Below are positions 15,701 to 32,782 of a DNA stretch of 64,000 nucleotides, in pieces. A program made the translations under genes and the position numbers. The notes beneath the pieces were generated by a model. The model made no database searches, had not been told where the DNA came from, and worked only from the letters and a program-made list of their open reading frames with translations. Each line of letters begins with the position of its first letter. Position 1 is the stretch's first letter. Origin of the DNA: Fibrobacter sp. UWT2 (GTDB lineage Bacteria > Fibrobacterota > Fibrobacteria > Fibrobacterales > Fibrobacteraceae); the NCBI RefSeq assembly GCF_900142545.1, contig NZ_FRBF01000011.1, forward strand, positions 1 through 64,000, given 5' to 3'.

Positions 15701-16298
15701 TTTCGACAAAGAGACCCGCATTCTTAAAGTTGTTTTCACTCAGCCTCTTAATTCGCTCAAAACTTTCAACAAGTTCTGTTTCGTTGTGGCAAATACTCAT
15801 ACCAATGCCGCCACCGCCTGCAGTGCTCTTAAGCATCACCGGGTAGCCAATTTCTTTGGAATGTGCAATCGCATCATCCAAGTTTTCCAAAAGTCCGGAA
15901 CCAGGAACTAGCGGGACATCAAATTCCTGTGCAAGTTCCTTACTACGGTGTTTCAGACCAAATTCAATGAGGTGTTTTGGAGTCGGGCCGATAAAAGCAA
16001 TTCCATTATCTTCTAGAGTCTTTGCAAAATCAGCGTTTTCACTCAAGAAACCGTAACCGGGATGAACAGCCTCGGCTCCAGTCGACTTAATTGCTTCCAA
16101 AATGGCAGGAACATTCAGATAGCTATCCTTGGCCGGTGCAGGACCAATACGAACAGCTTCATCCGCCATCAATACATGAGCTGCAGTTTCATCCGGATCA
16201 GAATAAACGGCAACAGATTTTACACCCATCTCTTTCAGGGTTCGAATAATGCGACAAGCGATTTCGCCACGATTTGCTACAAGTACTTTGTTGAACAT
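12705..16298 (-). CDS. Biotin-dependent guanidine/urea carboxylase
   Basis: A 1197-aa multidomain enzyme. Residues about 1-450 are a biotin carboxylase (ANRGEIACRIIRT, ATP-grasp GGGGIGMS, EVNTRLQVEH). About 455-760 is the KipA/AHS2 half (TTIQDYPGR, SGPMD) and 815-1040 the KipI/AHS1 half, together the carboxyltransferase. Residues 1128-1197 are a biotinyl domain with the biotin Lys at 1160 in ESMKTE. This order is that of urea carboxylase without the fused allophanate hydrolase. Enzymes of this type in clusters with DUF1989 proteins were shown in other bacteria to carboxylate guanidine rather than urea; that assignment here is from context. AAGGAG precedes the ATG at 16298. It is the last gene of an eight-gene operon. 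Confidence 0.9.
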   Translation of the reverse strand: MFNKVLVANRGEIACRIIRTLKEMGVKSVAVYSDPDETAAHVLMADEAVRIGPAPAKDSYLNVPAILEAIKSTGAEAVHPGYGFLSENADFAKTLEDNGIAFIGPTPKHLIEFGLKHRSKELAQEFDVPLVPGSGLLENLDDAIAHSKEIGYPVMLKSTAGGGGIGMSICHNETELVESFERIKRLSENNFKNAGLFVEKYVERGRHVEVQVFGDGEGNAVVLGERDCSVQRRNQKVIEETPAPCLPEKTREALHDAALRLVQGVSYRSAGTVEFIYDAPSDRFYFLEVNTRLQVEHGVTETVYDVDLVRWMVELAAGKRPFEIGAKFVPHGHAMEFRVYAEDPGKNFRPSSGLLTEVIFPEGIRVDTWVSRGTEVSAFYDPLLAKIIVAGKDREDNIEKAKKALADVKLCGFETNIKLLRDVLEMPNFVSGKVSTWILNDYKYHDRIFEVLAPGLQTTIQDYPGRLKYWDVGIPPSGPMDNYSFRLANKIVGNAENAAGIEMTHSGCTLVFHTNALIAFTGGDFPATINNLPCFKNTPVEIHDGDVLKFGVTKAGQRCYLAIRGGVDVPEYLGSKSTFTLGGFGGHGGRALTAGDILHIGNDIAGESVIPSNIAIPSISSEWEIGVMYGPHGAPDYLTQEDIDEFFAATWEVHYNSSRTGIRLIGPQPKWARPDGGEAGLHPSNLHDNAYAVGTVDFTGDMPIILGVDGPSLGGFACPVTIVSAELWKMGQLRSGDKVRFVPLSAEDAEKIRLAREETLEAPEKASKAMPLLTPSPVTSPIISEFNKDSEMEHVVVRADGDDNVLVEFGPAIIDLRLRFTAHAWMLAVKERFADVLIDVTPGIRSIQIHYDIRKIRQKDVLERLWDLAEHLRKNKLTKVPTRTIYLPLSWDDPQTRIAIEKYVTTVRPDAPWCCPNNIEFIRRVNGLESIDDVKQIVFAADYLVMGLGDVYLGAPVATPLDPRHRLVTTKYNPARTWTPENAVGIGGAYMCVYGMEGPGGYQFVGRTVQMWNRFKKTSDFPLPYLLRFFDQIRFYEVSADKLLQMRKDFAAGKFHVVVENSSFDIEEYERFLAVNAESISAFEEKRTKAFEEEKERWIANGQFTFESHSAQTTPIAEITLADGEDGVYSPVAGSLWKLIAKPEETVKAGDTLAIIESMKTEIPVIAASGGIVSQVFVKESSEVKAGQCLLAVKKLS

Positions 16299-16309
16299 GG
16301 CTATCTCCT

Positions 16310-17143
16310 TTAGTATTTAATCAATTGTACAAGAAGTTGTGTTAGGGATCCTTCTGGATTTTCAAGTTCTCCAAGGATCGTAAAATGGTTATGGTTCGTA
16401 AGCAAATTGAACGAGCCAGGAATATCTTCTTCGGTGCGGTGCATCGCGAATTCAGCACTTTGCCTACGGAGTTCCGAAAGTTCATCCGCTCCAACAACTA
16501 CGGCTATCGGCTTTTTTACGAACGACCTACGGAGAGGACTATACAAAAGAATCTCGTTTTCAGTAAGTTGAAGCTTATCATTCAAAAAACATTGCGAAAT
16601 CGGTTTCAAGTCATAGATACCACTAATAGCAAGCGCCCCACATACACCAACTTCATCAAGTACACTTACAGCAAGATGCGCACCAGCCGACCAACCCGAT
16701 ACATATACACGCGAATTGTCAAAGCCCAAATCTCCGCTATGAATGCGTAAATAACCAAGCGCACTGCGAATACTTCTTACAATTTCACGCATATTCACAT
16801 CGGGAGCAAGCGGGTACCCAATATTTGCAACATCAAAACCATGCGCAAGAGGACCTCTTGCAATAAAACGAAACTGCTCTTTACTCCGCATTTGCCAATA
16901 TCCACCATGAATAAACACAAACAGAGGAGCCCCCGTTTTTCCACAACTGAAATAATCCAAGCACTCTCTTGGATGTCTTCCATAACGTATATTCAAGCCA
17001 TTGGGATACTCCATCGAAATTTCGGCACTTTTTGTACTGAAATTTTCAAGCAATTCGCGGCTATTTTCTACAGCACGAGTATTATCGTAAGCCTGATCAA
17101 GCAATTCCTTGGTGAAATTTCGATATACGTAGCCGTTTTCCAT
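16310..17143 (-). CDS. Alpha/beta hydrolase (arylformamidase-like)
   Basis: A 277-aa alpha/beta hydrolase. The oxyanion motif HGGYW (near residue 80), the nucleophile elbow GWSAGAH and a C-terminal His in NHNHF form the expected Ser-His machinery, with an Asp in the VVGADELSE loop. The HGGYW pattern is typical of kynurenine formamidase-like and carboxylesterase proteins. It sits between the DUF1989 genes (18-base gap) and the carboxylase (11-base gap), so it probably acts on an amide or carbamate in the same pathway; the substrate is unknown. Confidence 0.75.
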   Translation of the reverse strand: MENGYVYRNFTKELLDQAYDNTRAVENSRELLENFSTKSAEISMEYPNGLNIRYGRHPRECLDYFSCGKTGAPLFVFIHGGYWQMRSKEQFRFIARGPLAHGFDVANIGYPLAPDVNMREIVRSIRSALGYLRIHSGDLGFDNSRVYVSGWSAGAHLAVSVLDEVGVCGALAISGIYDLKPISQCFLNDKLQLTENEILLYSPLRRSFVKKPIAVVVGADELSELRRQSAEFAMHRTEEDIPGSFNLLTNHNHFTILGELENPEGSLTQLLVQLIKY

Positions 17144-17161
17144 AAGTCCATTCCAAATAAA

Positions 17162-17803
17162 TTATTTTTCAAAAACCAGCAAGCGAATCGGAGTCGGATT
17201 GTAGTCATTGCAGGGATTGTTCAACTGAGAACAATCCGAAAGCAGGAACATCACATCCATATCGGCACGCAGTTCTATGTACTTGCCCGGTCCCGAAATT
17301 CCATCGGCAAATTCCAGGTGCCCCTTGTCATCTAGAATAACCTTTGTGAAAAAATTCAGGTTACAAGTCTGATCGCGCTTGCTCATCCCATAATTTTCAA
17401 GCGTACGCACGAACGTGTCACGGCAGCTGTGCATATAGCGAGTCTTGTCCGTATAGCGCACCACGTTTCCTTCAGCGGAGCATCCGCTTCCAAGCGTATC
17501 GTGTTCTCCGCAAGTATCCGCAATCACCGTAAGCATTGCATTTCCACAATTGCTGCGAATGACCGTGCCGAGTTCAATCATCGTATTCGCCTGTGCCGTA
17601 ATCGTATTGTTCGCATTATAACGTTCCGTCGGATCGTTCGCATTGTAAATCTGCACATCGCCGGACTGATTCCCTTCTACATCGACCATGCGGAGCACCT
17701 GTCCCTTCTTTAGGGGAAGCATGTAGCCGTCGCCCGCAAGCACCGTCACATCGAAGACGGCGTCCTTCAAGTCATGGGAACTTTCAAGAAGTTTTGAGTT
17801 CAT
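17162..17803 (-). CDS. DUF1989 protein, UAAP2-like copy 2 (carboxyguanidine deiminase subunit)
   Basis: A 213-aa DUF1989/urea-carboxylase-associated protein. DTCG.HDTLGSGC and the NLNFF, ADGIS and NNPCN motifs are visible; the Cys and His residues are candidate metal ligands. In guanidine degraders two DUF1989 proteins form the deiminase that turns carboxyguanidine into allophanate and ammonia. This one is a clear paralogue of the gene just upstream. Its ATG at 17803 overlaps that gene's TGA (ATGA), so translation is coupled. The frame extends upstream to 17821, but the ATG is the better start. Confidence 0.85.
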   Translation of the reverse strand: MNSKLLESSHDLKDAVFDVTVLAGDGYMLPLKKGQVLRMVDVEGNQSGDVQIYNANDPTERYNANNTITAQANTMIELGTVIRSNCGNAMLTVIADTCGEHDTLGSGCSAEGNVVRYTDKTRYMHSCRDTFVRTLENYGMSKRDQTCNLNFFTKVILDDKGHLEFADGISGPGKYIELRADMDVMFLLSDCSQLNNPCNDYNPTPIRLLVFEK

Positions 17804-18453
17804 ACAGACTCCTTGTCCCACACAATCATCCTGACCGGGGTCGGATCGTAAGCATTACAGGGATTGTTCAGCTGCGGACAATTACTCACGACCGCGAGCA
17901 CATCCATCTCGGCACGCATTTCCACGTACTTTCCCGGCGAAGAAATCCCGTCAGCAAAGTTAAGGTTTCCCTGTTCATCAAAAGGAACGTACATGAAGAA
18001 ATTCAGGTTGTTCACCTGGTCGCGCTTGTCCAGATTCGGGGTTTCAAGCAGCACCTTCAAGAACGATTCACGGCAGGCATGCATGTAACGTTTCTCAAAC
18101 GCATAGCGACAGGTGTTGCTTTCGCAGGAGCAAGCACTTCCGAGCGTATCGTGGTCACCACAAGTATCGGCAATCACCGTAAGCATCACGTTATCATCGT
18201 TGGAATAAAGCTTCGTCCCTACACCAACAAGGCAATTCGCCTGTCTTTGCACCGTCTGCTGAACGCTGTAGCGTTCCGACGGATCGTTCGCATTGATGAA
18301 CAGTGTATCAACAGCCTGGTTTCCTTTAAGGTCCAAAATGCGGAAAATCTGACCTTTCTTGATCAAATGCAGCCAGCCCTTCCCGGCGGCAACATCCTCG
18401 ACATAGCAGGCATCTTCTTCCTTGAGCGAACTTTCCAAATACTTCGTAAACAT
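17800..18453 (-). CDS. DUF1989 protein, UAAP2-like copy 1 (carboxyguanidine deiminase subunit)
   Basis: A 217-aa DUF1989 protein with DTCGDHDTLGSAC, KRDQVNNLNFF, ADGIS and QLNNPCN motifs. It shares most of its conserved positions with the downstream copy (17162-17803), which points to a local duplication. The second copy carries the same candidate metal-binding Cys/His residues. By homology to characterised clusters it belongs to the deiminase acting after the carboxylase. It ends in a four-base overlap with the next gene and starts 11 bases after the preceding DUF1989 gene. Confidence 0.85.
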   Translation of the reverse strand: MFTKYLESSLKEEDACYVEDVAAGKGWLHLIKKGQIFRILDLKGNQAVDTLFINANDPSERYSVQQTVQRQANCLVGVGTKLYSNDDNVMLTVIADTCGDHDTLGSACSCESNTCRYAFEKRYMHACRESFLKVLLETPNLDKRDQVNNLNFFMYVPFDEQGNLNFADGISSPGKYVEMRAEMDVLAVVSNCPQLNNPCNAYDPTPVRMIVWDKESV

Positions 18454-18463
18454 GATAGACCTC

Positions 18464-19180
18464 TTACAAGTTGTAGTTTGCCGTGTTGATGTAACCGCGG
18501 CCGTTTTCGGGGCACCAGGTAAAGCACGGGTCTTCGGCGCCGGCGATATCGCAAGTCATAAGTTCCACTTTCACGGGCTTGCGTAGATATTCCTTGCTCG
18601 GGTTCAGCGGGTGCATACCCGTATCGATGACCACCAGGGTATCCATTTCGGCACGCAGTTCCACATAGTCGCCCGGCTTGGAATTATTTTCGACAAAAGT
18701 CATCTTACCGTCGGAAGTCACCACAACCTTGCTAAAGAAATTGACCAGTTCCGTAAAATCCCTCTTGGTCATGCCGTGCTTGCCGATTTCCACCAGCAGG
18801 GAATCGTAGCCGTTACGGTAAAAATCGTTGTGTGCGCTCTGGTAATCCTTCTCGCCAAAACGTTCCTTGATCAAAGCCGCATGGGTGCATCCACACAGAG
18901 GGTCGTGCCAGCCCACGGAATCTTCGACGACACTCAACAAGATGCGTCCCATATCACCGTAAAGACAGCAGTTCTTCGCGATGCGGCAGATATGCTGAAT
19001 TTTCAAGGTGTCGCCCAAGTTGAAGCGCTCGGTAAAGTTGTGTGCATTATAGCACATGAGCGAGGCGTTCGCGCCGCCTTCCAAATCCGTGAGGCGAATT
19101 TTCTGACCACGTTTGACAATGCGCGAGTAGTTCCAGCCACCCGCAATGATCTGTTCGCAAAGTACTTTAGATTCAGACAT
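18464..19180 (-). CDS. DUF1989 protein, UAAP1-like (carboxyguanidine deiminase subunit)
   Basis: A 238-aa DUF1989 protein of the longer UAAP1-like type. It has VEDSVGWHDPLCGC in place of DTCG.HDTLG, then NFFSKV, PGDYVELRAEMD and a distinctive C-terminal tail (PCFTWCPENGRGY) that the two shorter paralogues lack. In characterised systems one UAAP1-like and one UAAP2-like protein form a heteromeric deiminase. It is the first catalytic gene after the transporter genes, starting at ATG 19180, 16 bases after the ATPase gene. Confidence 0.85.
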   Translation of the reverse strand: MSESKVLCEQIIAGGWNYSRIVKRGQKIRLTDLEGGANASLMCYNAHNFTERFNLGDTLKIQHICRIAKNCCLYGDMGRILLSVVEDSVGWHDPLCGCTHAALIKERFGEKDYQSAHNDFYRNGYDSLLVEIGKHGMTKRDFTELVNFFSKVVVTSDGKMTFVENNSKPGDYVELRAEMDTLVVIDTGMHPLNPSKEYLRKPVKVELMTCDIAGAEDPCFTWCPENGRGYINTANYNL

Positions 19181-19195
19181 AATAACTCCTGTTTT

Positions 19196-20044
19196 TTATG
19201 GTTGCATTCCAACCATGTTGACGATTTTAAAATCCTCTTCAACGACCTCGTTCACCTTAGGCGGGCGAATCAGTTCTTCGATATGTTTTCGCGTTTCGTT
19301 AAATTCGCGCAGACTTAGGCTTTCCTTATTACGCGGGCGCGGTATCGGCACATCAACCAACTCCTTTATCTTTCCGGGATTCGCCTGTAAAGTCAAAATG
19401 CGATCCGAAAGGAACACTGCTTCGTCCAAATCATGCGTCACGAAAATGATCGTGATGTCGATGTTCTTCCAGACTTCAAGCAGATACCTCTGCATCTGCG
19501 TCCTTGTCTGCGCATCGAGCGCACCGAACGGTTCGTCCATCAGCAGTACACGCGGCTGAGGCGCCAGCGCCCTCGCGATGGCGACGCGCTGCTGCATGCC
19601 ACCCGAAAGCTGCTTCGGGAAAAATTCACCGTACTTTTCGAGACCTACAATTTCAAGCCACTGCTCGGCAACCTCTTCGGCCTCGTCGCCACCGCGCCCC
19701 GTCGACTCGAGGCCAAACATTACATTCTGCTTGACCGAGAGCCACGGGAAAAGGGAATACTTCTGGAACACCATTCCCCTTTCGGCTCCAGTTCCGCGAA
19801 CCACCTTTCCGTCGAGTAGGAATTCGCCGCTGGTCGCCGTTTCGAGGCCCGCCGCAATACGGATGAGAGTTGACTTTCCGCAACCGGAAGGGCCGATGAC
19901 CGAGAGGAATTCGCGACGGCGCACGCTGAACGAGATATCATCCAAAACACGGTGCATTCCCTTGCCGGAAGAATTCTCAAAATCCTTTACGATATGGCGC
20001 GCTTCCAGAATGCAATCATTGAAAACTTCTTTAGAACCTTCCAT
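19196..20044 (-). CDS. ABC transporter ATP-binding protein (guanidine/urea importer)
   Basis: A 282-aa nitrate/sulfonate/taurine-class ABC ATPase. Walker [11 protein letters not shown]-loop, signature [15 protein letters not shown], Walker [10 protein letters not shown] and the H-loop VTHDLDEA are intact. It overlaps the permease gene by 14 bases and starts at ATG 20044. Its place ahead of the DUF1989 and carboxylase genes matches the ABC importer found in urea-carboxylase-region clusters; the cargo is inferred. Confidence 0.93.
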
Positions 20045-21095
20045 GGTATTTCTCCTTGAGCGCCTTTTCTTCGGGAGTCAGGCGGAACGAAAATACGGTA
20101 TCCTTCGGCGCAAAAATTTCCTTCTTGATCTTGGACGTCACTCCGACATGGCCACCTTCCCAGGCAAAGAAATCACGACTGAGGAAATTGAGCACAAGAT
20201 CGCAACCCAGCCCGATAATTCCGAGGATGATAATCGCCGCATAAACATTGTCGAAATTACGGTACTTCGCCTGCTGATTGATGAACCAGGTGATGCCGGA
20301 ACTCGTGCCGACCACTTCAGCCACAATCAGGTAGGTCCACGCCCAACCCAGCAAAATGCGCATATCCTTGTACATCTTGGGAGCAATCTCGGGCAGGATG
20401 ACCTTGAACATGATGCGTCGAGAAGAGGCTCCCAACGTGCGAGCGGCTTCGATCAAGGTCGAATCGACACGGCGCGTGGTGGCGCACAGCATAGGGACCT
20501 GCTGGAAAAATGTACCGATGATAATAATCGCGATCTTGGGCGCGTCATTGATACCGAGAATAGCGACGGCCAATGCACCGAATACCGGTGCCGGGAAATA
20601 CCGGAAAAACTCAATGAAGGGGCCAGTCAATTTTTCAAAGAACGGGACTGCGCCGCAAATAATGCCCAGCGGCACGCCGACGAGACTCGACAGCAAAAAG
20701 GCCAGGAATACGATTTTTACAGAGTGGAGTATACTTTCGTAAAACCAGACATCGCCATCGCGCTTCGGTTCCGTCAAGAATGCAGTCACGAGAGCCTTCG
20801 CGACTTTGTGCGGAGCCGGGAGATAGGCGGGGTTGATGCGTACTCCCGTCATCATTTTCTCGCCGGCGGCCAGGAGGGTTTTATTTTCTTCTTCGAAGTT
20901 GGCTCGTTCGATTTCGTCGCCCGGCTGGCAAAACATGCTGCCACCTGCATCGACCACCTTGACAAGCGGGTGATATACAAACGGTACATAGCTTACCACG
21001 CTCCAAGCTGCAAGGGGGATAATGAACGAAAGCACCGCAAGCACCACCGTCCACTTCTTTCCAACATGCTTTTGAATTCCAATCGGGTTAATCAT
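20031..21095 (-). CDS. ABC transporter permease (guanidine/urea importer)
   Basis: A 354-aa inner-membrane permease of the SsuC/TauC class. An N-terminal helix (about residues 15-38) is followed by an extended periplasmic segment and then a BPD_transp_1 core with the EAA-type loop [24 protein letters not shown] that contacts the ATPase. The length, longer than typical SsuC (about 260 aa), comes from the extra N-terminal helix and loop, as in the urea-carboxylase-region permeases. ATG at 21095. Confidence 0.9.
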
Positions 21096-21116
21096 AACAT
21101 TTCCAAATTCAGTGTT

Positions 21117-22100
21117 TTACTTTTTCGCCTTGACGAATGCTTCCGTGAACGAAGGGATAATGTAACGGTTCACATCCACATTCTTTTCATAAACCTTGTT
21201 CTTCACGAAGAACGCATCGACATTCTTGCTGGACCCGTAAACGGAGCCATAGCCTTCGCCCTTCTTGAATCGGGCAGCCGCCTCTTCAGCAGTCAGGAAG
21301 CGGGTTCCTCCCATAAACGTGGCATATTTCTTTTCGGAAATGCCCACGCGGGCGGCAAGAATCTTGACGGCCTCATCCTTGTTTTTCGGATCGTTCAGGA
21401 AATCGATGACATCATACCAGGCGGCTACAACCTTTTCCCATTCGGCCTTGTTTTTCATCAGCGACTCCTGCGAGACTGCGAGAACATCGTAGATGATTCC
21501 GGGTTCGTTCGCGCTGGTGTAGAGTTCCTTGGCTCCCTTGACCACCTCGAGCGCATTCACAGAATGCGGAACCCATGCGACCACTGCGGCGACTTCGCCA
21601 CTTTCAAGGGTCTGCACCGCTTGATGCGTCGGCATATTCACCAGCGTCACGTCGGATTCTTTCAAGCCGTTTTTTGTAAGGGCGTTAATCAGCAGCGCAT
21701 GCGAAAGGCATCCGATCTCGACACCCACCTTCTTGCCCTTGAGATCCTTGATGGAGTTGATTCCAGGAGCACCGACAATCTTGTCGTTACCGTTACTGTA
21801 GTCGTTGATCAAGATGATAGAGTTGCGGGCGCCCGTCGCGTTAAGCATCATGGCATCGCCATTCGCCACTCCCACGGCATCCACCTGCTTTGCGGCAAAG
21901 GCATCCATAGAAGGGCCATAATCAAACCATTCCAGCTTGACATTGACATCATGCTTTTTGAAGAAGCCCTTCTTATCGGCAATTTCCCACGCGGTCCATC
22001 CCGGCCAATCACTGTAGGCAATTTTCAGCAGGGGCTTTTGAGCATATACGGCAGCAACGGCCGCAGTAACACATACCAGAAGTATTTTTGTCAAATTCAT
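21117..22100 (-). CDS. ABC transporter substrate-binding protein (guanidine/urea importer)
   Basis: A 327-aa periplasmic protein with a signal peptide (residues 1-20, cut near VYAQ) and an SsuA/NMT1-like bilobed fold: AYSDWPGWTAWEIADKKGFF opens lobe 1, and KGKKVGVE and EVAAVVAWVPH mark the hinge strands. The ATG at 22100 is chosen because GAGGAT lies just upstream; a longer frame reaches 22145 but would run through the predicted promoter. It is the first gene of the minus-strand operon. Confidence 0.9.
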   Translation of the reverse strand: MNLTKILLVCVTAAVAAVYAQKPLLKIAYSDWPGWTAWEIADKKGFFKKHDVNVKLEWFDYGPSMDAFAAKQVDAVGVANGDAMMLNATGARNSIILINDYSNGNDKIVGAPGINSIKDLKGKKVGVEIGCLSHALLINALTKNGLKESDVTLVNMPTHQAVQTLESGEVAAVVAWVPHSVNALEVVKGAKELYTSANEPGIIYDVLAVSQESLMKNKAEWEKVVAAWYDVIDFLNDPKNKDEAVKILAARVGISEKKYATFMGGTRFLTAEEAAARFKKGEGYGSVYGSSKNVDAFFVKNKVYEKNVDVNRYIIPSFTEAFVKAKK

Positions 22101-22128: not shown

Positions 22129-22146
22129 AGCAAAAGGTATGCCAAT
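22129..22146 (-). promoter_or_regulatory. Sigma-54-type promoter of the guanidine operon
   Basis: On the minus strand the bases read TTGGCATACCTTTTGCT, with GG and GC separated by exactly ten bases, matching the TGGCAC-N5-TTGCW consensus at most positions. A start about 22118 would leave an 18-base leader holding the GAGGAT ribosome site. No guanidine-I riboswitch signature is present in this spacer. Confidence 0.65.
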
Positions 22147-23395: not shown

Positions 23396-25162
23396 ATGGA
23401 CCTCAGAATTTCATCCCTCTTAAACGCATACCGCAGCGGAGCGACAACTCCACGCGCCGTCATCGAATACGTCCTTGACGAAATGGAAAAGGCTCCCGCA
23501 CAAATCTGGATTAGCCGCCTTTCGAAGGAGGCCCTGGAAAAATACCTAGAACCTCTCGAAAAGTTTTCCTGCATCCCCGAGAACATGCCACTTTTCGGAA
23601 TCCCGTTCGCCATCAAGGACAACATCGACGTAGAAGGGTTCAAAAGCACCTCGGCATGCCCCGCCTACGCCTATACGGCAGCAAAAGATTCGTTTGTCGT
23701 AAACCGCCTGGTCGAAGCAGGCGCCATTCCGGTCGGAAAGACGAACATGGACCAGTTCGCCACGGGACTCGTCGGAACACGCAGCCCCTACGGAGCCATT
23801 CCCAACAGGTATGCTCCAGAATACATTTCAGGCGGAAGCAGCAGCGGTTCGGCGGCATCGCTCGCCTATGAACTCTGCAGCTTCGCCCTCGGCACCGATA
23901 CGGCGGGCTCCGGGCGCGTTCCCGCGGCATTCAACAAGCTGGTAGGCATCAAGCCGACGCGCGGTCTGCTCAGTACAAACGGGGTCATTCCCGCTTGCCG
24001 AAGCCTCGACTGCGTCAGCATTTTTGCGCTGGATATTGAAGATGCGAAAACTGTCCTGAACGTCGCACAAGGAGAAGATCCCGAAGACCCGTATTCCAGG
24101 GAAGCTCCATGGAACGCCAATGCGGAACTGCGTGCGAGACTCACCGAAAAATGGACCTTCGGCGTGCCCGACACGTTAGAGTTTTTCGGCAACGAGGGCT
24201 ACCGAGAAGCATTCGAAAAAGCAGTTTGCGCATTCGAAAGGGCTGGCGGTACAAAGGTTGTCGTCCCGTTTGAACCCTTCCTGAAAGCGGCGTGGCTTCT
24301 CTACGAAGGTCCGTGGGTTTTCGAACGCTACAATGCCGTCGGAAAATTCATCGAGGAACATTCGGACGAAATTCATCCGGTAACCAAGGCAATCATATCG
24401 CCTAAACAAATTCCGCATCCGTCAGAAGTCTTCGAAGGCTTCCATAAGTTGCAAGCATATAAGAAAATTACAGATAAAATAATATCGTCGGTCGATTTTC
24501 TGCTTACACCGACCGCAGGGACCATCTACAAGACGGACGAAGTCGAAAGCAATCCCATCGCGTTGAATTCCAATCTGGGTTACTACACCAACTATATGAA
24601 CCTGCTGGATTACTCGGCACTCGCCGTCCCTGCCGAAGATGCCACGAGCAAAGATGAAAATGCACCGAGCCTTCCGTTCGGCGTGACTCTCGTGGGCAAG
24701 GCTTTCGACGATTACAAGCTGCTCGATGCCGCCGAAGCGGCTAAGCCCTTCCTTGAAAAAAGAATACCGCTTGCCGTCTGTGGCGCCCACCTCAGAGGAT
24801 GCCGGCTCTATTGGGAACTTTCGCGCGCAACCTTCCTGAAAGGCACTAGAACAGCTCCCGAATACAGGATGTTTACTTTCAACGATCACGGTATTCAAAA
24901 GCCCGCACTCGTCTCCTGCCCTAAAGGAGAAGGGCACAGTTTCTACATCGAAATCTACGGGCTCACTGCAGAGGACTTCGGCAATTTTGTAAGCCGCATT
25001 CCGAAACCGCTTTGCATCGGCAAAATCAAGACAATCGACGGGACACTTGTTTCGGGATTTCTTTCCGACACCTCTATGGGTGAGTGGATTTACGACAAGA
25101 AGGCTGTCGATATCTCGGAGTACGGTGACTGGAGAAAGTATATCGCGGCTACAAAGAAGTAA
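23396..25162 (+). CDS. atzF: Allophanate hydrolase (AtzF-type)
   Basis: A 588-aa amidase-signature enzyme. The catalytic Lys is at 74 in FAIKDN, the Ser-cisSer pair lies in the GGSSSGSAAS loop (about 150) and the nucleophile region is GTDTAGSGRVPA. A C-terminal domain (about residues 455-588) gives the length and layout of AtzF/DUR2 allophanate hydrolase, not a short amidase. It hydrolyses allophanate to CO2 and ammonia, the last step after carboxylation and deimination. AGGAGG precedes the ATG. It is co-transcribed with the ROK gene and convergent with the alpha-E gene. Confidence 0.92.
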   Translation: MDLRISSLLNAYRSGATTPRAVIEYVLDEMEKAPAQIWISRLSKEALEKYLEPLEKFSCIPENMPLFGIPFAIKDNIDVEGFKSTSACPAYAYTAAKDSFVVNRLVEAGAIPVGKTNMDQFATGLVGTRSPYGAIPNRYAPEYISGGSSSGSAASLAYELCSFALGTDTAGSGRVPAAFNKLVGIKPTRGLLSTNGVIPACRSLDCVSIFALDIEDAKTVLNVAQGEDPEDPYSREAPWNANAELRARLTEKWTFGVPDTLEFFGNEGYREAFEKAVCAFERAGGTKVVVPFEPFLKAAWLLYEGPWVFERYNAVGKFIEEHSDEIHPVTKAIISPKQIPHPSEVFEGFHKLQAYKKITDKIISSVDFLLTPTAGTIYKTDEVESNPIALNSNLGYYTNYMNLLDYSALAVPAEDATSKDENAPSLPFGVTLVGKAFDDYKLLDAAEAAKPFLEKRIPLAVCGAHLRGCRLYWELSRATFLKGTRTAPEYRMFTFNDHGIQKPALVSCPKGEGHSFYIEIYGLTAEDFGNFVSRIPKPLCIGKIKTIDGTLVSGFLSDTSMGEWIYDKKAVDISEYGDWRKYIAATKK

Positions 25163-25181: not shown

Positions 25182-26111
25182 CTAGCAGAAAAAATCCTTC
25201 CAGATTTGAGTTCCAAGTTCGCTTAAGCGGATTTGGACTTTTTCGATATGCTCATGAAGCCCCTGGTCGATGATTTCTTCGATGGTGGTGAATGCAATGT
25301 CGGAACGCAACTTTCCCAAGAGGCGGATAGATTCCGCCTTGCCTTTGACAGGATAGGCAATATTCTTGAGGCACAGCTCCGCTTTTTCTAGGCAGTAGCG
25401 CAAGGAACGCGGAAAATCTTCGGAGAGCAGGAGAAATTCCGCGACGTTATGCGGCGTCACGTTCGAATTGCGGCGATGGAACATTTCGTACGCGCCGACG
25501 CTCTTGAGAACGGCGTTCCACTGCACGGTATCGAGCGCCATGCCCACCATGCTCACGTCTGGGAGCAAGATGTAATACTTGACATCTAGAATACGCGAAG
25601 TCTGATCGGCGCGTTCGAGCAGGGTGCCGAGGTGCGTGAAGTTCCAGGCGACATCGTGATTCATTGTGCCCTGAATAATGCCCGCGGTGAGCTGGCTGAA
25701 TTCCTTGACGCTATTGTAAAAGGCGTGTGGACCTGCCAACGCTTCTTTAGGCATTTCGGGGTCGTTCAGTTTCAGATAGAACTGGTTGATGGCAATCCAC
25801 AGTTCCGAAGAAATCCTTTCGCGGACGCAGCGGGCGTTTTCACGGGCCGCCCCGACGCACGAAATGATACTATTCGGATTTTCCTTGTCGAACGTCAAGA
25901 ACATGAGCGCGTTTTCGATGGAAACGTGGGCGTATTTTTTGAAGAATGCGTCTGCGTTGCCGGCAATCTGGATTACCGGTTCCCAGGGGCGTTCTTCGCC
26001 GGGTAAGTCCAGTTGGAGCTGGAGGTTCACGTCGATGCTTCGCGCGACGTTTTCGGCACGTTCAATATAGCGGGCAAGCCAATAAATGGAATTTGCGACT
26101 CTACTTAACAT
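25182..26111 (-). CDS. Alpha-E domain protein
   Basis: A 309-aa all-helical alpha-E (DUF403) protein; MLSRVANSIYWLARYIERAEN is the hallmark opening and RADQTSRILD a second conserved helix. Alpha-E proteins occur almost only next to circularly permuted ATP-grasp enzymes and transglutaminase-like proteins, in clusters proposed to make or modify peptides or amide-linked metabolites. It starts at ATG 26111 and is the last gene of the four-gene minus-strand cluster. Confidence 0.9.
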   Translation of the reverse strand: MLSRVANSIYWLARYIERAENVARSIDVNLQLQLDLPGEERPWEPVIQIAGNADAFFKKYAHVSIENALMFLTFDKENPNSIISCVGAARENARCVRERISSELWIAINQFYLKLNDPEMPKEALAGPHAFYNSVKEFSQLTAGIIQGTMNHDVAWNFTHLGTLLERADQTSRILDVKYYILLPDVSMVGMALDTVQWNAVLKSVGAYEMFHRRNSNVTPHNVAEFLLLSEDFPRSLRYCLEKAELCLKNIAYPVKGKAESIRLLGKLRSDIAFTTIEEIIDQGLHEHIEKVQIRLSELGTQIWKDFFC

Positions 26112-26135: not shown

Positions 26136-27626
26136 CTATTGTTGTTGCTGCTGTTCCATCCAAAGTTTAGCTTGGCCAAGTTCGGGGGCTTTCTCGTTTT
26201 CGGCGATGACCCAAGTGTCCTTGCATCCGCCGCCCTGCGAACTGTTCACCACGATAGAACCCTTGCGGAGCGCCACGCGGGTGAGGCCACCGGGGAGAAT
26301 GTAAGTCTCTCGCCCTTGTACAATGTAGGGGCGCAAGTCCACATGGCGACCTTCGAAACCGCCATCGACAATGCAAGGCACGCGGCTGAGCGAAATCATG
26401 GGCTGCGCAATGTAGTTACGCGGGTTCGCAATAATCTTGCTCTTGAACGCCTCACATTCCTCCTTCGTCGATTTTGGACCGACGAGCATGCCGTAGCCAC
26501 CGGATTCGCTGGCGGCCTTGACGACCATGTTTTCGATGTGGTCTAACACATGTTGCATGTGCTTCGGGTTTTCGCATACAAATGTCGGCACGTTCGGGAT
26601 GATCGCCTCTTCACCGAGGTAGTACTTGATAATCTGCGGCACATAGGTGTAAATCGCCTTGTCGTCGGCAACGCCGCAGCCGGGCGCGTTTGCAAGAGCT
26701 ACGTTTCCGGCCTTGTAGGCTTCAATCAGTCCGGGCACGCCGAGACAGGAATCCGGGCGGAAAACCTTCGGATCCAGGAATTCGTCATCGACACGGCGAT
26801 AAATCACGTGAACCTGCTTGAGGCCGCGCGTTGTGCGGGCGTAGACTTTCTTGTTTTGCACTACGAGGTCGTCACCTGTCACGAGGTCCACGCCCATCTG
26901 CTGTGCCAGAAAAGAATGCTCGTAGTAAGCCGAATTGTAGATGCCGGGCGTTAACACAACGACCTTGGGCGATGCTGTAGAATCGGCCAAGTATTCCAAC
27001 GCATGGCGCAGACGGGTGCAGTATTCGTCTACGGGTCGAATGGAACAGTTGGAAAATACCTGCGGGAACGTACGCTTTAGAATCTGACGGTTCTGCAACA
27101 CGTACGAGACACCACTCGGGCATCGCATGTTGTCTTCGAGTACATAGAATGTGCCGTCGGTATCGCGCACGAGGTCGGTACCGGTAATGTGAGCCCAGAT
27201 TCCCTTGGGCGGCACAAAACCTTCCATCTGCGCTCTGTATGCGGTGCAGGTGTTGATGAGGCTTTCGGGCACAATCTTATCGCGCAAAATTTTGCGGTCG
27301 TTGTAGATGTCCGTCAAGAAGCAGTTCAGCGCTTCTGTACGCTGTTTGAGGCCTGCTTCGAGGTGTTTCCAGTCGTCGGCGCTTACAATACGCGGGATAA
27401 CGTCAAAGGGGATGATTTTGTCTTTGCCGTCCTTGTTGCCGTAAACCGCGAATGTAATTCCGTTATCGTAAAACGCAGATTCTGCAATGGTTTGACGGCG
27501 TTGCAGTTCTCCTTCGGGAAGCTCATTGATTTTCGTAAACAACGGCTCTGCTGCCGGGCGGGGAGTCCCGTCAGGTAAGCAAAGCTCATCGTAAAAGCCT
27601 TCGGTGTCGTAGTTTCCAAATCGCAT
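26136..27626 (-). CDS. Circularly permuted ATP-grasp protein (amidoligase-like)
   Basis: A 496-aa circularly permuted type-2 ATP-grasp protein. ITGTDLVRDTDGTFYVLEDNMRCPSG is reflected in the GTDL, VLEDN and PSGVSYVL motifs, with TPG.YNSAYYEH, VYRRVDD, LANAPGCGVADDK and KAASESGGYGM following in family order. Such enzymes are predicted to form amide bonds from ATP and a carboxylate. It ends with a run of glutamines. It lies between the transglutaminase gene (32-base gap) and the alpha-E gene (24-base gap). Confidence 0.9.
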   Translation of the reverse strand: MRFGNYDTEGFYDELCLPDGTPRPAAEPLFTKINELPEGELQRRQTIAESAFYDNGITFAVYGNKDGKDKIIPFDVIPRIVSADDWKHLEAGLKQRTEALNCFLTDIYNDRKILRDKIVPESLINTCTAYRAQMEGFVPPKGIWAHITGTDLVRDTDGTFYVLEDNMRCPSGVSYVLQNRQILKRTFPQVFSNCSIRPVDEYCTRLRHALEYLADSTASPKVVVLTPGIYNSAYYEHSFLAQQMGVDLVTGDDLVVQNKKVYARTTRGLKQVHVIYRRVDDEFLDPKVFRPDSCLGVPGLIEAYKAGNVALANAPGCGVADDKAIYTYVPQIIKYYLGEEAIIPNVPTFVCENPKHMQHVLDHIENMVVKAASESGGYGMLVGPKSTKEECEAFKSKIIANPRNYIAQPMISLSRVPCIVDGGFEGRHVDLRPYIVQGRETYILPGGLTRVALRKGSIVVNSSQGGGCKDTWVIAENEKAPELGQAKLWMEQQQQQ

Positions 27627-27658: not shown

Positions 27659-28540
27659 TCATTCATCCCTAAGGTCCACGTTTACGGACACTTTCAAGGT
27701 ATGCTCGCCACCTCCGGTGATGACACCCTTTAACGGACTTACATCTCCGAAGTCTCTACCCCAGGCGAGTATAATGTGCTCGCAACCTCCAAGCACATTG
27801 TTGGTGGGGTCTAGTTCTACCCAGCCGTGGCCGGGAATGTAGGTGCTGACCCAGGCGTGGGTCGCGTCGGCTCCGACAAGTTTTGGTTGCCCTTCGCAGG
27901 GGTGAGTGCGGAGGTAACCGCTCACGTAACGGCAGGGCAAATGCAGCGAACGCATGCAGCCGATCATCAGGTGCGCAAAGTCTTGGCAGACGCCTTTTCT
28001 ACCGCGCAAGATTTCCTGTGGCTGCGCACCGATTCTTGTTGCCCCTGGTGTGTACTTGCAGTCCGTGTAGATTCTCGTCATCAGTTCAAAGGCGGCGTCA
28101 AAAATGGGACGGCCCTGCTGAAAACTTTCGAGTGCGTAATTGCGGACCGATTCGTCAAACTTGGCGAAAGGGGAGGCGTAGGCGTACATCGCGGCGTCTA
28201 GCGTTTCGTCGCTTATCGGGCGTTCCAAAAGTTTTGCGACATCTTCCCATTTCATTGTTTCACCTTGTTTTGGCGGTTCTTCTTCCTGAACGTCTACGAT
28301 GCCAGTCGTTTTGAATCTAAAGTGCGTGTGTTCCTGCTCGATACTGAAAGCCAACACCTTGTTCCCGAAAATGTCGAGGCGTTCCTGCTGTATCGTTGGA
28401 TTCGGATCCACTTCGATGCTGTGACTAATCCAGTTCTGTCGGCTGACGGTTCGCGGGAGCATGTGGGCGAGGTGGTTGCTGTAAAGAACGGGAAGGCGGT
28501 AGTCGTAGACAGTTTCGTGATCAACTTGGTAAATGGGCAT
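27659..28540 (-). CDS. Transglutaminase-like cysteine protease family protein
   Basis: A 293-aa protein with the N-terminal beta-domain typical of the family (Y.Y..PV..S.H...L.PR) and a C-terminal transglutaminase core. The catalytic triad is visible as Cys in GRKGVCQDFAHL, His in ATHAWV and Asp in ELDPTN. It probably cleaves or forms peptide amide bonds in the same pathway as the neighbouring ATP-grasp enzymes. It starts one base after the stop of the fused ATP-grasp/alpha-E gene. Confidence 0.9.
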   Translation of the reverse strand: MPIYQVDHETVYDYRLPVLYSNHLAHMLPRTVSRQNWISHSIEVDPNPTIQQERLDIFGNKVLAFSIEQEHTHFRFKTTGIVDVQEEEPPKQGETMKWEDVAKLLERPISDETLDAAMYAYASPFAKFDESVRNYALESFQQGRPIFDAAFELMTRIYTDCKYTPGATRIGAQPQEILRGRKGVCQDFAHLMIGCMRSLHLPCRYVSGYLRTHPCEGQPKLVGADATHAWVSTYIPGHGWVELDPTNNVLGGCEHIILAWGRDFGDVSPLKGVITGGGEHTLKVSVNVDLRDE

Positions 28541-28541
28541 C

Positions 28542-30944
28542 TTAAACCTCCGACACGTCTGTGGTTGTGGCGTGGAAAACGCCTGCGCGTGGGGCGTGGC
28601 TTAAGTAGAGCCTGTTTACGATTTCGGCAATCCGTTCAATGGATTTTATCTGAGTTTCTACAAGTCTTATGAGGTTCTCCCTTTTGTTATCAACGGTTTC
28701 TGCAAGTTGTTCAATGTTCGCGAGGCGAAGTTCGGCGAGTACACGCATCAGTTCGCGGTCCAGCGGCGAGAATGTCGCTTCGCTCTGGTCGTTGCCGGGC
28801 AAGTGCTTCGCGGCTTTCCGCAGTTTTGCCACCTGGTAGGCGACGCTTCGCGGGTTGGATTCGTCTGACAAAAGCAAGTCGATGACGGGTACAACTTGCA
28901 ATCGTCCTCCATAGCGGCGGTGGTATGTCATGAGCCCGTCGCCGATTTCGAGAATCGCTTGCAGCAAGCGCAAGTTCGTCATCTCGTCGGTAGGAGCCGT
29001 ATAAAGCAGGCTACTGACCAGTTGCAAGGTGCGGATGGCGCATTCGATTTCACGACCGAGTTCCAAGAAGCGCCATTCGTGGCCGCGCGTCATGGAATCC
29101 GCTGCAAGCCCGGCCACCGCAGCGCTGTCCGAAAGCACTTCCTTTAGGTAAGGCAACAGCGCTGCCGCACCTGTTCCCGCCGGCATTTCTGCAATTCCAA
29201 ATCCGTTCAGATAAAGCCATAAATCCTCTGAAATTCGGTCCCGCAACTGCATGCCGAGTTCTCGAATTTCCGTCAGCACACATTGCATGCCGTTCTTGTT
29301 GTCCTTGCGCAAGATAAAGTAACGGAGTGCGTTTTCGGGATCTTGCGCGAGCCTGGACTGCGATTCGTCTGTAAGCCCTGCCTTCAGTATCCACGGCAAT
29401 TCCGGCATGTCCATCCAAGATTCGTCCGAAAGCCTCACCGCGATGCCTCTTGCAATACGGGCCATCATGTTCGATGCCGACAATGCTCGCCCCAGCCGGA
29501 ACAAGTTCTCGGCCGCACGGCTAGGCAAGTCGCCTCCAGCTCTCGACGGCGTGATTGACTGGCCGGCAGGAGCGAGCAATGAAAAGTTTGCTACGGGCCT
29601 TTCCGAAAGCACCCAGATGTCTTTTTCACCAAGTCCATTGTCCAAAATCCCGAGGCCGCCCGGCATCACCGATGTTTCCTTTGCCGTGTTGACGGCAAAG
29701 AACCGCATTAGCGAAGGCACCGGAGTGAAATCCCCATGGTATGCGTAAACGGTCGAAACCTCCATGGATCTTTCGGCTACCCATTGTTCAGGCGCATTCT
29801 CGATTGCTTGCAATAGGGCGAGCTGTGCCGTTGTTGTCATTGTTGCATAAGTTTTGCATTCGGCCTCCTTGAAGCTTCCGCTATCGCGAAAGGTTTTCTT
29901 GAAAATCCATTTTTCAGGCTCTGCCAACACACGCTCCGCATCGGCCGCGTTCCCGAGCCAAAGTGTTTTCACATCGCGCAATAGCAGTTCTTCGCCTAAA
30001 AGCTCGCGGCAAATCTTCGGCAAAAATGGCTTGAACAGGGGCGTTTCCAGAACGCCTGTCCCGAGGAAGTTCGCGATGGCCACATTTCCGGCGCGGACAG
30101 AACTGATTAAGCCCACGGCACCTTCGCCGCTGTCAATTCGCAACTCCAACGGATCGCACATGCCGTCTTCTACTCGGCGGAATATAGTTCCAATCTTTTT
30201 GAGTCCCATGAGCGTCTTCATGTACACTTGCATATTGCGGATTGCGAGGTCGTCGTTTTCGACAAGCGGAATTCCCAAGTAACGGGCAATCACGGCGTCT
30301 TCGGCGCGACGCGGATTGTCTGGGCTCGATGCCAAGAGAACCACCTTGCTGGTTTCGCCTTCACTTCCGATATTTTTGTGCATGGCGTCTAGGCCATCTA
30401 TCAGCTTCTTGAAAAATCCTGCCAACCGTTCCGTTTGCATGCTGCGGAACAGTTCCGGGAAAGCACGACTCACGCCAATGCGGTTTTCTAGCGCACGTCC
30501 CAAGCCTTCGGGCACTTGCAAATGGTCTGCCATTGCCACGAAAGATCCGTCTTTGAGCCTTGCCACATCGGTCGCCGTCAGGTTCACGAAAACATCGTCA
30601 ACCGGGTGTACTTTCCATACAACCTGTAAAAAGTCCGGGTTCGCGAATAGCAGCGCGGCGGGCAATTTGCCTTTTTTCCAAAGACGTTGTTCGCCATAAA
30701 TATCTTTTGCGAGTGTGTTGAATAGTCTTGCCCTTTGCGCGACGCCCGCTTCTAGCGTTTTCCATTCTTCTGCCGTAATCACGAGGGGAATCGGGTCTGT
30801 TCCTTTGTGGTTGCCTCCCATGCTCGACGAAAGATCGTTTTCGTCAAGAACGTTATGCAAACGCCTGCAACGGTGCTCAAACTCCTCTTTCGAAAATGCC
30901 GAAATGGATTTGATAAAAGTGTCTTCTGTCTCTATGCAGTTCAT
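28542..30944 (-). CDS. Fusion of circularly permuted ATP-grasp and alpha-E domains
   Basis: An 800-aa protein. Residues about 40-480 are a circularly permuted ATP-grasp domain (NLTATDVARLKDGSF, VLLASSPDNPR, FRRVEDG, IANFLGTGVLE, ETSVMPGGLG); 490-800 is an alpha-E domain (LFRLGRALSASNMMARI, ECAIRTLQLV). It pairs as a fused version with the separate ATP-grasp and alpha-E genes downstream, so the cluster holds two ligase/alpha-E pairs. Position equivalents of the ATP-grasp lysine and acidic residues look less conserved than in the unfused copy. No Shine-Dalgarno precedes the ATG at 30944, and the predicted sigma-54 transcript would start only about two bases before it. Confidence 0.88.
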   Translation of the reverse strand: MNCIETEDTFIKSISAFSKEEFEHRCRRLHNVLDENDLSSSMGGNHKGTDPIPLVITAEEWKTLEAGVAQRARLFNTLAKDIYGEQRLWKKGKLPAALLFANPDFLQVVWKVHPVDDVFVNLTATDVARLKDGSFVAMADHLQVPEGLGRALENRIGVSRAFPELFRSMQTERLAGFFKKLIDGLDAMHKNIGSEGETSKVVLLASSPDNPRRAEDAVIARYLGIPLVENDDLAIRNMQVYMKTLMGLKKIGTIFRRVEDGMCDPLELRIDSGEGAVGLISSVRAGNVAIANFLGTGVLETPLFKPFLPKICRELLGEELLLRDVKTLWLGNAADAERVLAEPEKWIFKKTFRDSGSFKEAECKTYATMTTTAQLALLQAIENAPEQWVAERSMEVSTVYAYHGDFTPVPSLMRFFAVNTAKETSVMPGGLGILDNGLGEKDIWVLSERPVANFSLLAPAGQSITPSRAGGDLPSRAAENLFRLGRALSASNMMARIARGIAVRLSDESWMDMPELPWILKAGLTDESQSRLAQDPENALRYFILRKDNKNGMQCVLTEIRELGMQLRDRISEDLWLYLNGFGIAEMPAGTGAAALLPYLKEVLSDSAAVAGLAADSMTRGHEWRFLELGREIECAIRTLQLVSSLLYTAPTDEMTNLRLLQAILEIGDGLMTYHRRYGGRLQVVPVIDLLLSDESNPRSVAYQVAKLRKAAKHLPGNDQSEATFSPLDRELMRVLAELRLANIEQLAETVDNKRENLIRLVETQIKSIERIAEIVNRLYLSHAPRAGVFHATTTDVSEV

Positions 30945-30954
30945 ACATCTAATA

Positions 30955-30974
30955 AGTGCAAGAACTGTGCCAAT
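30955..30974 (-). promoter_or_regulatory. Sigma-54-type promoter of the ATP-grasp cluster
   Basis: The minus strand reads TTGGCACAGTTCTTGCAC, an almost exact match to TTGGCAC-N5-TTGCA with GG and GC ten bases apart. The start would fall near 30946, next to the ATG at 30944, so the message may be leaderless or the real start codon lies further in. Confidence 0.7.
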
Positions 30975-31005
30975 ACTGTTATTGACTATAATCGGGCAAA
31001 TTTTG

Positions 31006-31020
31006 TTACAAGACTTGTAA
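31006..31020. promoter_or_regulatory. 15-bp palindrome between two divergent sigma-54 promoters
   Basis: TTACAAG-A-CTTGTAA is a perfect palindrome centred at 31013. It lies about 67 bases upstream of one predicted start and about 95 bases upstream of the other, distances usual for an enhancer-binding activator site. The activator is not in the window. Confidence 0.55.
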
Positions 31021-31081
31021 TTATTTCAAATTTCGTTCAAAATAAGGCGGGATTTTCTAGTAAAACCAACTCTTTTCTTGT

Positions 31082-31097
31082 TGGCATGATTATTGCA
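31082..31097 (+). promoter_or_regulatory. Sigma-54-type promoter of the acetolactate synthase gene
   Basis: TGGCATGATTATTGCA has GG at 31083-31084 and GC at 31095-31096, exactly ten bases apart. The expected start near 31108 gives a 34-base leader before the ATG at 31142. Confidence 0.65.
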
Positions 31098-31141
31098 AAT
31101 GTTGTGCGGATAAATATTGAGAATGGATAAAGAAATCGTTT

Positions 31142-32782
31142 ATGAATACTGCTGAGGTTTTGATTAAGTCGCTCGAAAGTGAGGGCGTCAAGTACATTTT
31201 TGGAATCCCGGGCGAAGAAACCCTGGAACTGATGGAGGCTATCAAAAAATCGTCCATTAAGTTTATCGCGGTCCGCCATGAGCAGGGCGCTGCGTTTATG
31301 GCAGATGTCTATGGGCGTCTAACGGGGAAGGCGGGTGTATGCCTTTCGACGCTAGGGCCGGGGGCCACGAACCTTGTTACGGGTGTTGCCGATGCAAATT
31401 CCGACGGTGCTCCGCTGATTGCGATTACGGGGCAGGTGGGAACGGAGCGTATGCACCTGACAAGCCACCAGTATTTGGATTTAGTGAACATGTTTACGCC
31501 GATTACCAAGCGCAGCAAACAGGTGGTGCGTCCGGATACGGTGAACGAAATTGTGCGCATCGCGTTCAAGTATGCTGAAATGGAAAAGCCGGGGGCATGC
31601 CTCATCGACTTGCCGTGCAATATTGCCGCGATGGATGTGGTTGGCGAAGTTGCTCAGACTCCGCTAAAGCACCATCGTGAAAATACGGAATACGCAAGCC
31701 GCGACGCGATTCAGGCTGCTGCAAAGGTTTTTGCGAATGCCGAGCGGCCCGTGATATTGGCGGGGCATTCCGCCGTGCGAAATAATGCATCAAAGGCGTT
31801 GACATCGTTCGCGTCTTCGGCGAAGATTCCCGTGGTGACGACCATGATGGCGAAAGGCGTGATCCCTTGCGACAACCCGTATTCGATGCGGTGTATCGGT
31901 ATCCCGCAGAAGGATTACCAGAACTATGTGATGGAACATGCGGATCTTGTGATTGCAGTAGGTTACGATGTCGTTGAATACGCCCCCGTAAAGTGGAACC
32001 CCGAAGGCGACAAGAAAATTATTCATATCGACGAATCGCCGAACCATGTGAACAAGTTTTATCAGCCTGATGTAGAAGTCATTGGCGATATTTCTGCATC
32101 GCTGAATGAACTGTGCGGGCTTTGCCCCAACACCAAGGCTCCGGAATGGGCGCTACGCATTCGCGAGATGATGGTGGCTGACCATTCCCGCTACGATTGG
32201 GACAACAGTTTTCCGCCGAAACCCCAGAAGGTGCTCCACGACATTCGGCAGGTTATGGGCGAAGATGATATCTTGCTCTCGGATGTGGGGGCGCACAAAA
32301 TGTGGATCGCGCGGCAGTACAACTGCTACCATCCGAATACCTGTATTATCTCGAATGGTTTTGCAACCATGGGGATTGCGGTGCCGGGCGCCCTTGCGGC
32401 AAAGCTTTTGAATCCGGACAAGAAAATCCTTGCGGTCACGGGTGACGGCGGCTTTATGATGAACAGTCAGGAATTGGAGACTGCTTATCGAGAGCACATT
32501 CCGTTCGTGACGCTAATCTTTACCGATGGCAGTTACGGCCTCATCAAGTGGAAACAGGAAGAACGCTACGGCGATAGCTATGCGGTCGAATTCACGAATC
32601 CGGATTATGTCAAGTATGCAGAATCCATGCACCTGAAGGGCTACCGCATCGAACGCACGGAAGACTTGCCGGGAACCTTGCGCGAGGCCTTTGCACAGGA
32701 TGTTCCCTGCATTATCGAATGTCCGGTGGACTATTCGGCGAACATGGAACTTTCTGAGTATCTGAAAAATTTGAAAATCTAG
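31142..32782 (+). CDS. Acetolactate synthase, catabolic (AlsS-like)
   Basis: A 546-aa thiamine-diphosphate enzyme. The cofactor-activating Glu is in RHEQGAAFMAD, the TPP/magnesium motif is GDGGFMMNSQELETA, and the FTDGSYGLIKWKQ stretch is typical of AlsS-type enzymes. It condenses two pyruvates to 2-acetolactate. No small regulatory subunit, ilvC or acetolactate decarboxylase gene is nearby, so use in acetoin formation or valine/leucine synthesis cannot be decided. It is divergent from the ATP-grasp cluster and has its own sigma-54-type promoter; it is followed by a 57-aa ORF. Confidence 0.87.
   Translation: MNTAEVLIKSLESEGVKYIFGIPGEETLELMEAIKKSSIKFIAVRHEQGAAFMADVYGRLTGKAGVCLSTLGPGATNLVTGVADANSDGAPLIAITGQVGTERMHLTSHQYLDLVNMFTPITKRSKQVVRPDTVNEIVRIAFKYAEMEKPGACLIDLPCNIAAMDVVGEVAQTPLKHHRENTEYASRDAIQAAAKVFANAERPVILAGHSAVRNNASKALTSFASSAKIPVVTTMMAKGVIPCDNPYSMRCIGIPQKDYQNYVMEHADLVIAVGYDVVEYAPVKWNPEGDKKIIHIDESPNHVNKFYQPDVEVIGDISASLNELCGLCPNTKAPEWALRIREMMVADHSRYDWDNSFPPKPQKVLHDIRQVMGEDDILLSDVGAHKMWIARQYNCYHPNTCIISNGFATMGIAVPGALAAKLLNPDKKILAVTGDGGFMMNSQELETAYREHIPFVTLIFTDGSYGLIKWKQEERYGDSYAVEFTNPDYVKYAESMHLKGYRIERTEDLPGTLREAFAQDVPCIIECPVDYSANMELSEYLKNLKI

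Follow-up and report, generated by a model that had tools for sequence, protein, structure and literature searches.

Operons that combine circularly permuted ATP-grasp (CP-ATP-grasp), Alpha-E, and transglutaminase proteins have been described as amidoligase operons (Iyer et al. 2009, as cited in PMC3597751), and in marine metagenomes the domains of this cluster co-occur with urea genes (PMC3597751). In Burkholderia cenocepacia, a DUF403/404/407/transglutaminase cluster changes by log2 -6.0 to -9.4 in an ntrC mutant; it belongs to the strongest NtrC-activated sets, is listed as a target that NtrC and sigma-54 share, and responds together with the urease, urt, and urea carboxylase genes (PMC5491218). 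For Fibrobacter, the literature that we found on sigma-54 (RpoN) consists of passing co-mentions only.

The window analyzed here, 64,000 nucleotides from Fibrobacter sp. UWT2 (contig NZ_FRBF01000011.1, positions 1 to 64,000), holds an amidoligase cluster that is divergent from an acetolactate synthase (ALS) gene. The spacer between the two start codons, ATG 30944 on the minus strand and ATG 31142 on the plus strand, covers positions 30945 to 31141 (197 bp). We propose that it would act as a bidirectional sigma-54 control region of a Fibrobacter nitrogen/glutamine-limitation regulon. The features of the window on which the argument draws are the following.

12705-16298, minus strand: urea carboxylase (biotin carboxylase)
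12705-22100, minus strand: urea-carboxylase-type locus (urea carboxylase, DUF1989 protein, ABC transporter)
22129-22145, minus strand: third sigma-54 site of the window, at the urea-carboxylase-type ABC transporter substrate-binding gene (ATG 22100), predicted leader 18 nt
23396-25162, plus strand: allophanate hydrolase
25182-26111, minus strand: Alpha-E domain protein
26136-27626, minus strand: second circularly permuted ATP-grasp protein (CP_ATPgrasp_1/2)
27659-28540, minus strand: transglutaminase-like protein (Bact_transglu_N and Transglut_core)
28542-30944, minus strand: CP_ATPgrasp_2 and Alpha-E fusion protein of 800 aa, with which the amidoligase cluster opens
30946, minus strand: predicted transcription start of the amidoligase cluster (T of TGGCA plus 26), 2 nt before ATG 30944
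30957-30973, minus strand: sigma-54 (-24/-12) promoter of the amidoligase (CP-ATP-grasp/Alpha-E) cluster, TTGGCACAGTTCTTGCA
31006-31020, no strand: palindrome, proposed enhancer-binding protein (EBP) site (upstream activator site, UAS) common to both promoters, TTACAAGACTTGTAA, an instance of TTACA-N5-TGTAA
31081-31097, plus strand: sigma-54 (-24/-12) promoter of the ALS gene, TTGGCATGATTATTGCA
31108, plus strand: predicted transcription start of the ALS gene, leader 34 nt
31142-32782, plus strand: acetolactate synthase of the AlsS/PRK08322 type (NF006187), 546 aa

The setting of these genes is one of nitrogen scavenging. Upstream of the third sigma-54 site, only a degenerate UAS is present (p 0.03). 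The spacer contains no Rfam family, and 5S rRNA is the only one across the window; that gene, at 1-90 on the plus strand, is truncated by the window's left end.

Both sigma-54 sites of the spacer are near-perfect matches to the consensus, with the GG-N10-GC core in a TGGCAC-N5-TTGCA context. A preliminary description of this DNA had reported two divergent sites with this core and the palindrome TTACAAG-A-CTTGTAA between them, and all three are present at the positions given above. Its predicted starts, 30946 and 31108, also agree with those obtained by applying the usual 26-nt offset to the sites, but its outer coordinates are 1-2 bases off. Genome-wide pattern searches, with reversed patterns as controls, show that the motif class is enriched. 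In the 3.49 Mb of this genome, TTGGCA-N6-TTGCA has 11 matches compared to 1 for its reversal, and 2 of the 11 fall within this single spacer; for TGGCAYR-N4-TTGCW the counts are 27 and 5. At the control rate, two such sites would be expected in 197 bp about 4e-8 times, by our own arithmetic. The preliminary description had made its proposal depend on rpoN, which the genome does encode, together with seven true sigma-54 activators (EBPs).

The sequence TTACAAGACTTGTAA occurs as a single exact copy in the whole genome. Its center lies at -67 from the minus-strand start, which is close for an enhancer site, and at -95 from the plus-strand start; the palindrome is about 40 bp upstream of the minus-strand -24 element. 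We rejected a terminator hairpin, as the 1-nt loop cannot form and a terminator scan found none. The degenerate form TTACR-N5-YGTAA has 25 matches in the genome and its reversed form has 23, so the motif is not over-represented as such; the excess is in position only. Seven of the 25 sites lie just upstream of sigma-54 sites, compared to a chance expectation (our own arithmetic) of about 0.02 for 27 windows of 100 bp. These seven belong, apart from the one in this spacer, to the promoters of GlnN (type III glutamine synthetase), gltB (glutamate synthase), purF, and a dapF-dapL-EBP operon, where the motif lies 70-135 bp upstream of the sigma-54 site. The purF and dapF-dapL-EBP promoters have two copies each, 31 bp apart. 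The glnK-amt promoter of the same genome has weak motif sites only. Across the genus, the composite of motif, 52-82 bp, and sigma-54 site gave 86 matches in 58 of 80 genomes compared to 1 for the reversed control, although about 4 of the 86 are one conserved sequence resembling coding DNA. Behind 27 of the 29 composites read we found dapF, glnN, gltB, purF, pyrG, a probable nadE, or glnK (pyrG and nadE assigned from N-terminal sequence and glnK by analogy). Since nitrogen genes have this same motif ahead of their sigma-54 sites, the palindrome behaves like a UAS, and it is best read as the operator of an EBP responding to nitrogen/glutamine limitation.

An ALS ortholog (86-100% identity) is present in 22 of the 80 genus genomes. 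Upstream DNA could be read in 21 of these, and every one keeps the two divergent sigma-54 sites, counting ALS-ATP-grasp and ALS-urtA spacers together. The remaining spacer sequence has diverged, and the distance between the two sites ranges from 109 to 273 bp. The best palindrome score per spacer has a mean of 8.95 of 10 in these 21 spacers, compared to 7.26 +/- 0.14 for shuffles, while in 6 of them the best palindrome is equalled by at least 12% of shuffles. Many relatives have two motif sites 18 bp apart, not one. A sister genus within the family (G150, L222) has the divergent ALS and ATP-grasp genes as well, and their spacer contains both sigma-54 sites and, between these, TTACGTTTTCTGTAA. 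The recurrence of the three elements in the same order, for which the preliminary description had suggested a search, extends to both the genus and its sister. In two genomes of another genus the two genes are adjacent, divergent in one and tandem in the other, and the sites are degenerate. One clade has a different arrangement: the divergent partner of ALS is urtA, the first gene of a urtABCDE-urease operon, and the spacer here too has two sigma-54 sites. The sites of this clade differ from the others. In those of its genomes that were read through, the amidoligase cluster follows the urtABCDE-urease operon with a sigma-54 site of its own. The promoter has thus moved together with each gene set, which speaks for each being a regulon member in its own right.

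We suggest that when nitrogen is short an EBP would bind TTACA-N5-TGTAA between the operons and, through DNA looping, would remodel RNA polymerase-sigma-54 at both flanking -24/-12 promoters. The amidoligase cluster (CP-ATP-grasp/transglutaminase/Alpha-E) on one side and the AlsS-type ALS on the other would then be switched on. Since the spacer has the control site found before glutamine and glutamate synthesis genes, both operons are probably turned on together under nitrogen shortage, and the switch that they share very probably belongs to the nitrogen/glutamine-limitation regulon. That one EBP drives both operons had already been proposed; the sites, their order, and the operator at nitrogen genes speak for it, but relatives often have two sites, and in the urease clade ALS pairs with urtA. 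On balance, we consider it likely that the spacer is such a bidirectional switch, worked by one EBP at the palindrome.

The activator is most likely the NifA-like GAF-AAA+-Fis EBP of the dapF-dapL-EBP operon (C5:231193-232716; C5 EBP). This protein has a GAF-AAA+-HTH_8 architecture without a receiver; its best NCBIfam model is NifA (TIGR01817, 459.0 bits, under the cutoff of 528.85), and it fails the ntrC model (TIGR01818, 316.2 compared to a cutoff of 558.6). It is encoded by the third gene of its operon, whose sigma-54 promoter carries two operator copies, and it is the first candidate because autoregulation is presumed, the one ground for the assignment. All 80 genus genomes have a match, which in some incomplete genomes is partial or a paralogue only, and dapL lies beside the C5-type EBP in 30 of 30 loci examined. 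Diaminopimelate epimerase and a dapL-like aminotransferase are an unusual home for a nitrogen activator (L126:4191-7942). An NtrC ortholog with a receiver was not found among the seven EBPs. The only EBP with a recognizable receiver, encoded on C17, was rejected as the regulator: it adjoins other signaling genes and lacks the operator.

Other readings keep the sigma-54 promoters and assign the palindrome differently. The regulon may be real and its activator another protein, either the C18 EBP, a second NifA-like GAF EBP, or the C7 EBP. The C5, C18, and C7 EBPs, the three scanned against NCBIfam, all score best against the NifA model, and the C7 EBP shares about 57% identity with the dapF-dapL EBP across the AAA+ and HTH part, so that as a close paralogue it could read the same site. 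Its gene also lies beside that of a second type III glutamine synthetase (L132:1245-4632), the two being divergent and the EBP short and lacking a sensor domain; neither a sigma-54 site nor an operator turned up in the DNA that separates them. We nevertheless regard this reading as unlikely: neither the C18 nor the C7 EBP gene has a nearby sigma-54 site with the motif, and among the EBP genes whose surroundings were read, that of the C5 EBP alone is in an operon with a paired-site sigma-54 promoter.

It is also conceivable that the palindrome binds a separate repressor, or a nitrogen regulator that is not an EBP, which modulates the two promoters while the EBP works from solution or at some other place. 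Many one-component regulators typically recognize short AT-rich palindromes, and the site is only some 40 bp from the minus-strand -24 element, as noted above. This reading has to account for a motif that recurs 70-135 bp upstream of sigma-54 promoters, twice as a pair 31 bp apart and once at an operon containing an EBP gene, and that marks the nitrogen promoters among the sigma-54 promoters inspected; we therefore judge it still less probable than a different EBP. Chance, meaning that the -24/-12 look-alikes and the palindrome arose by accident in an AT-rich spacer whose flanking genes are read from sigma-70 promoters, can be excluded for practical purposes. Its sole support is a weak sigma-70-like match at 31000-31029 (minus strand), no more than expected, whereas the sites are kept in 21 genomes and the sister genus while the surrounding DNA diverged, and both the sigma-54 pattern and its composite with the operator exceed their reversed controls genome-wide. 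We thus return to a single EBP acting at the palindrome on both promoters, with the C5 EBP as the likeliest one.

The preliminary description had pointed out that the minus-strand start would leave almost no leader before the ATG. The predicted leader is indeed 2 nt here, and for 14 of 18 relatives the ATP-grasp mRNA is likewise predicted to have a leader of 0-3 nt; in the other four, all of the urease clade, it would be 69 nt. Several relatives have an in-frame stop 6-9 nt upstream of the ATG, so translation cannot begin earlier in them. Over the first 41 ATP-grasp codons, 13 relatives differ 280, 146, and 882 times at the first, second, and third codon positions, and this bias indicates that the reading frame is genuine from the outset and rules out a miscalled start codon as the cause of the absent leader. 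The amidoligase mRNA is therefore probably leaderless or nearly so. Among the 18 sigma-54 genes of this genome for which leaders were computed, only one other has a leader this short (1 nt, sigma-54 site at C10:4175-4204, L127:4175-4204) and the rest are 18-97 nt. That other site lies directly downstream of an EBP gene, which itself follows a protein-kinase-like gene. For translation, a leaderless start that is conserved downstream of a sigma-54 promoter would be a testable oddity.

The ALS scores above the cutoffs of NF006187 (815.8 bits, cutoff 509) and NF006378 (528.5, cutoff 510) and below that of the AlsS model TIGR02418 (494.1, cutoff 551.1), and its best solved relatives are catabolic acetolactate synthases, e.g., 1ozf and 4rjj. 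We rejected a dedicated acetoin pathway here: this genome has no acetolactate decarboxylase, and the occurrence of that enzyme, in 13 of 80 genomes, does not track that of this ALS. The link between the amidoligase cluster and acetolactate synthesis made in the preliminary description is a predicted co-regulation under nitrogen limitation, in a genome without that decarboxylase. As a guess, ALS may belong to the regulon as an outlet for carbon overflow when nitrogen is limiting.

Near-perfect sigma-54 sites also lie directly before genes that, by their N-terminal sequences, are htpG-, groES-, dnaK-, grpE-, clpB-, and secA-like or encode an rpoD-like sigma factor.

C1:60251, C1:183319, C2:239976, C2:252368, C4:230496, C10:96027, and C14:43678: chaperone-type sigma-54 loci (L055, L057, L058, L059, L062, L073, and L077 of this genome)

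The nitrogen operator is present at none of these seven. A sigma-54 heat-shock branch in Fibrobacter is possible; a 2025 survey reports links between sigma-54 and chaperones in Planctomycetota and Bacteroidota and leaves Fibrobacter unmentioned (PMC12316311).

Beyond the preliminary description, the present analysis proposes a regulon, an operator consensus, and a candidate activator, and shows that the sites are conserved and that the predicted near-lack of a leader is conserved as well. A wider picture can be offered only tentatively. Fibrobacter may run its nitrogen response without NtrC, with a GAF-type, NifA-like EBP from a diaminopimelate (lysine/cell wall) operon as its sensor of nitrogen status. 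Bound to TTACA-N5-TGTAA, this protein would switch on glutamine synthesis, enzymes that consume glutamine, and the amidoligase/acetolactate pair, with a leaderless amidoligase mRNA. In a genus important in herbivore fiber digestion, a sigma-54 nitrogen regulon predicted down to its operator and a candidate activator would be of interest. It would also link the uncharacterized ATP-grasp/Alpha-E/transglutaminase cluster with nitrogen limitation in one more phylum, on evidence separate from that in Burkholderia, which narrows its possible product.

Compared to the proteobacterial NtrC/sigma-54 regulon (glnA, glnK-amt, urt/ure), the predicted regulon is alike in that the genes for glutamine synthetase, PII, urea use, and the amidoligase cluster have sigma-54 promoters with palindromes upstream, and in that an EBP is encoded within a regulated operon. 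The NtrC-type site is TGCACC...GGTGCA, whereas that of Fibrobacter is TTACA-N5-TGTAA; the candidate EBP carries a GAF domain, lacks a receiver, and is encoded in a dapF-dapL-EBP operon and not in glnA-ntrB-ntrC, and the targets include gltB, purF, and pyrG. With NifA-type EBPs, the C5 EBP shares the GAF-AAA+-HTH_8 architecture and its best NCBIfam model, but it scores below the NifA cutoff and its presumed site differs from the NifA site, TGT-N10-ACA. With the catabolic AlsS/BudB enzymes, the Fibrobacter ALS is connected by its best solved relatives and by passing NF006187 and NF006378; it differs in falling below the TIGR02418 cutoff and in its place in a predicted nitrogen regulon in a genome without acetolactate decarboxylase. 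The amidoligase cluster itself resembles the known operons in domains and neighborhood; here, it is joined to an AlsS-type ALS gene by a bidirectional sigma-54 spacer, and its first gene is probably leaderless.
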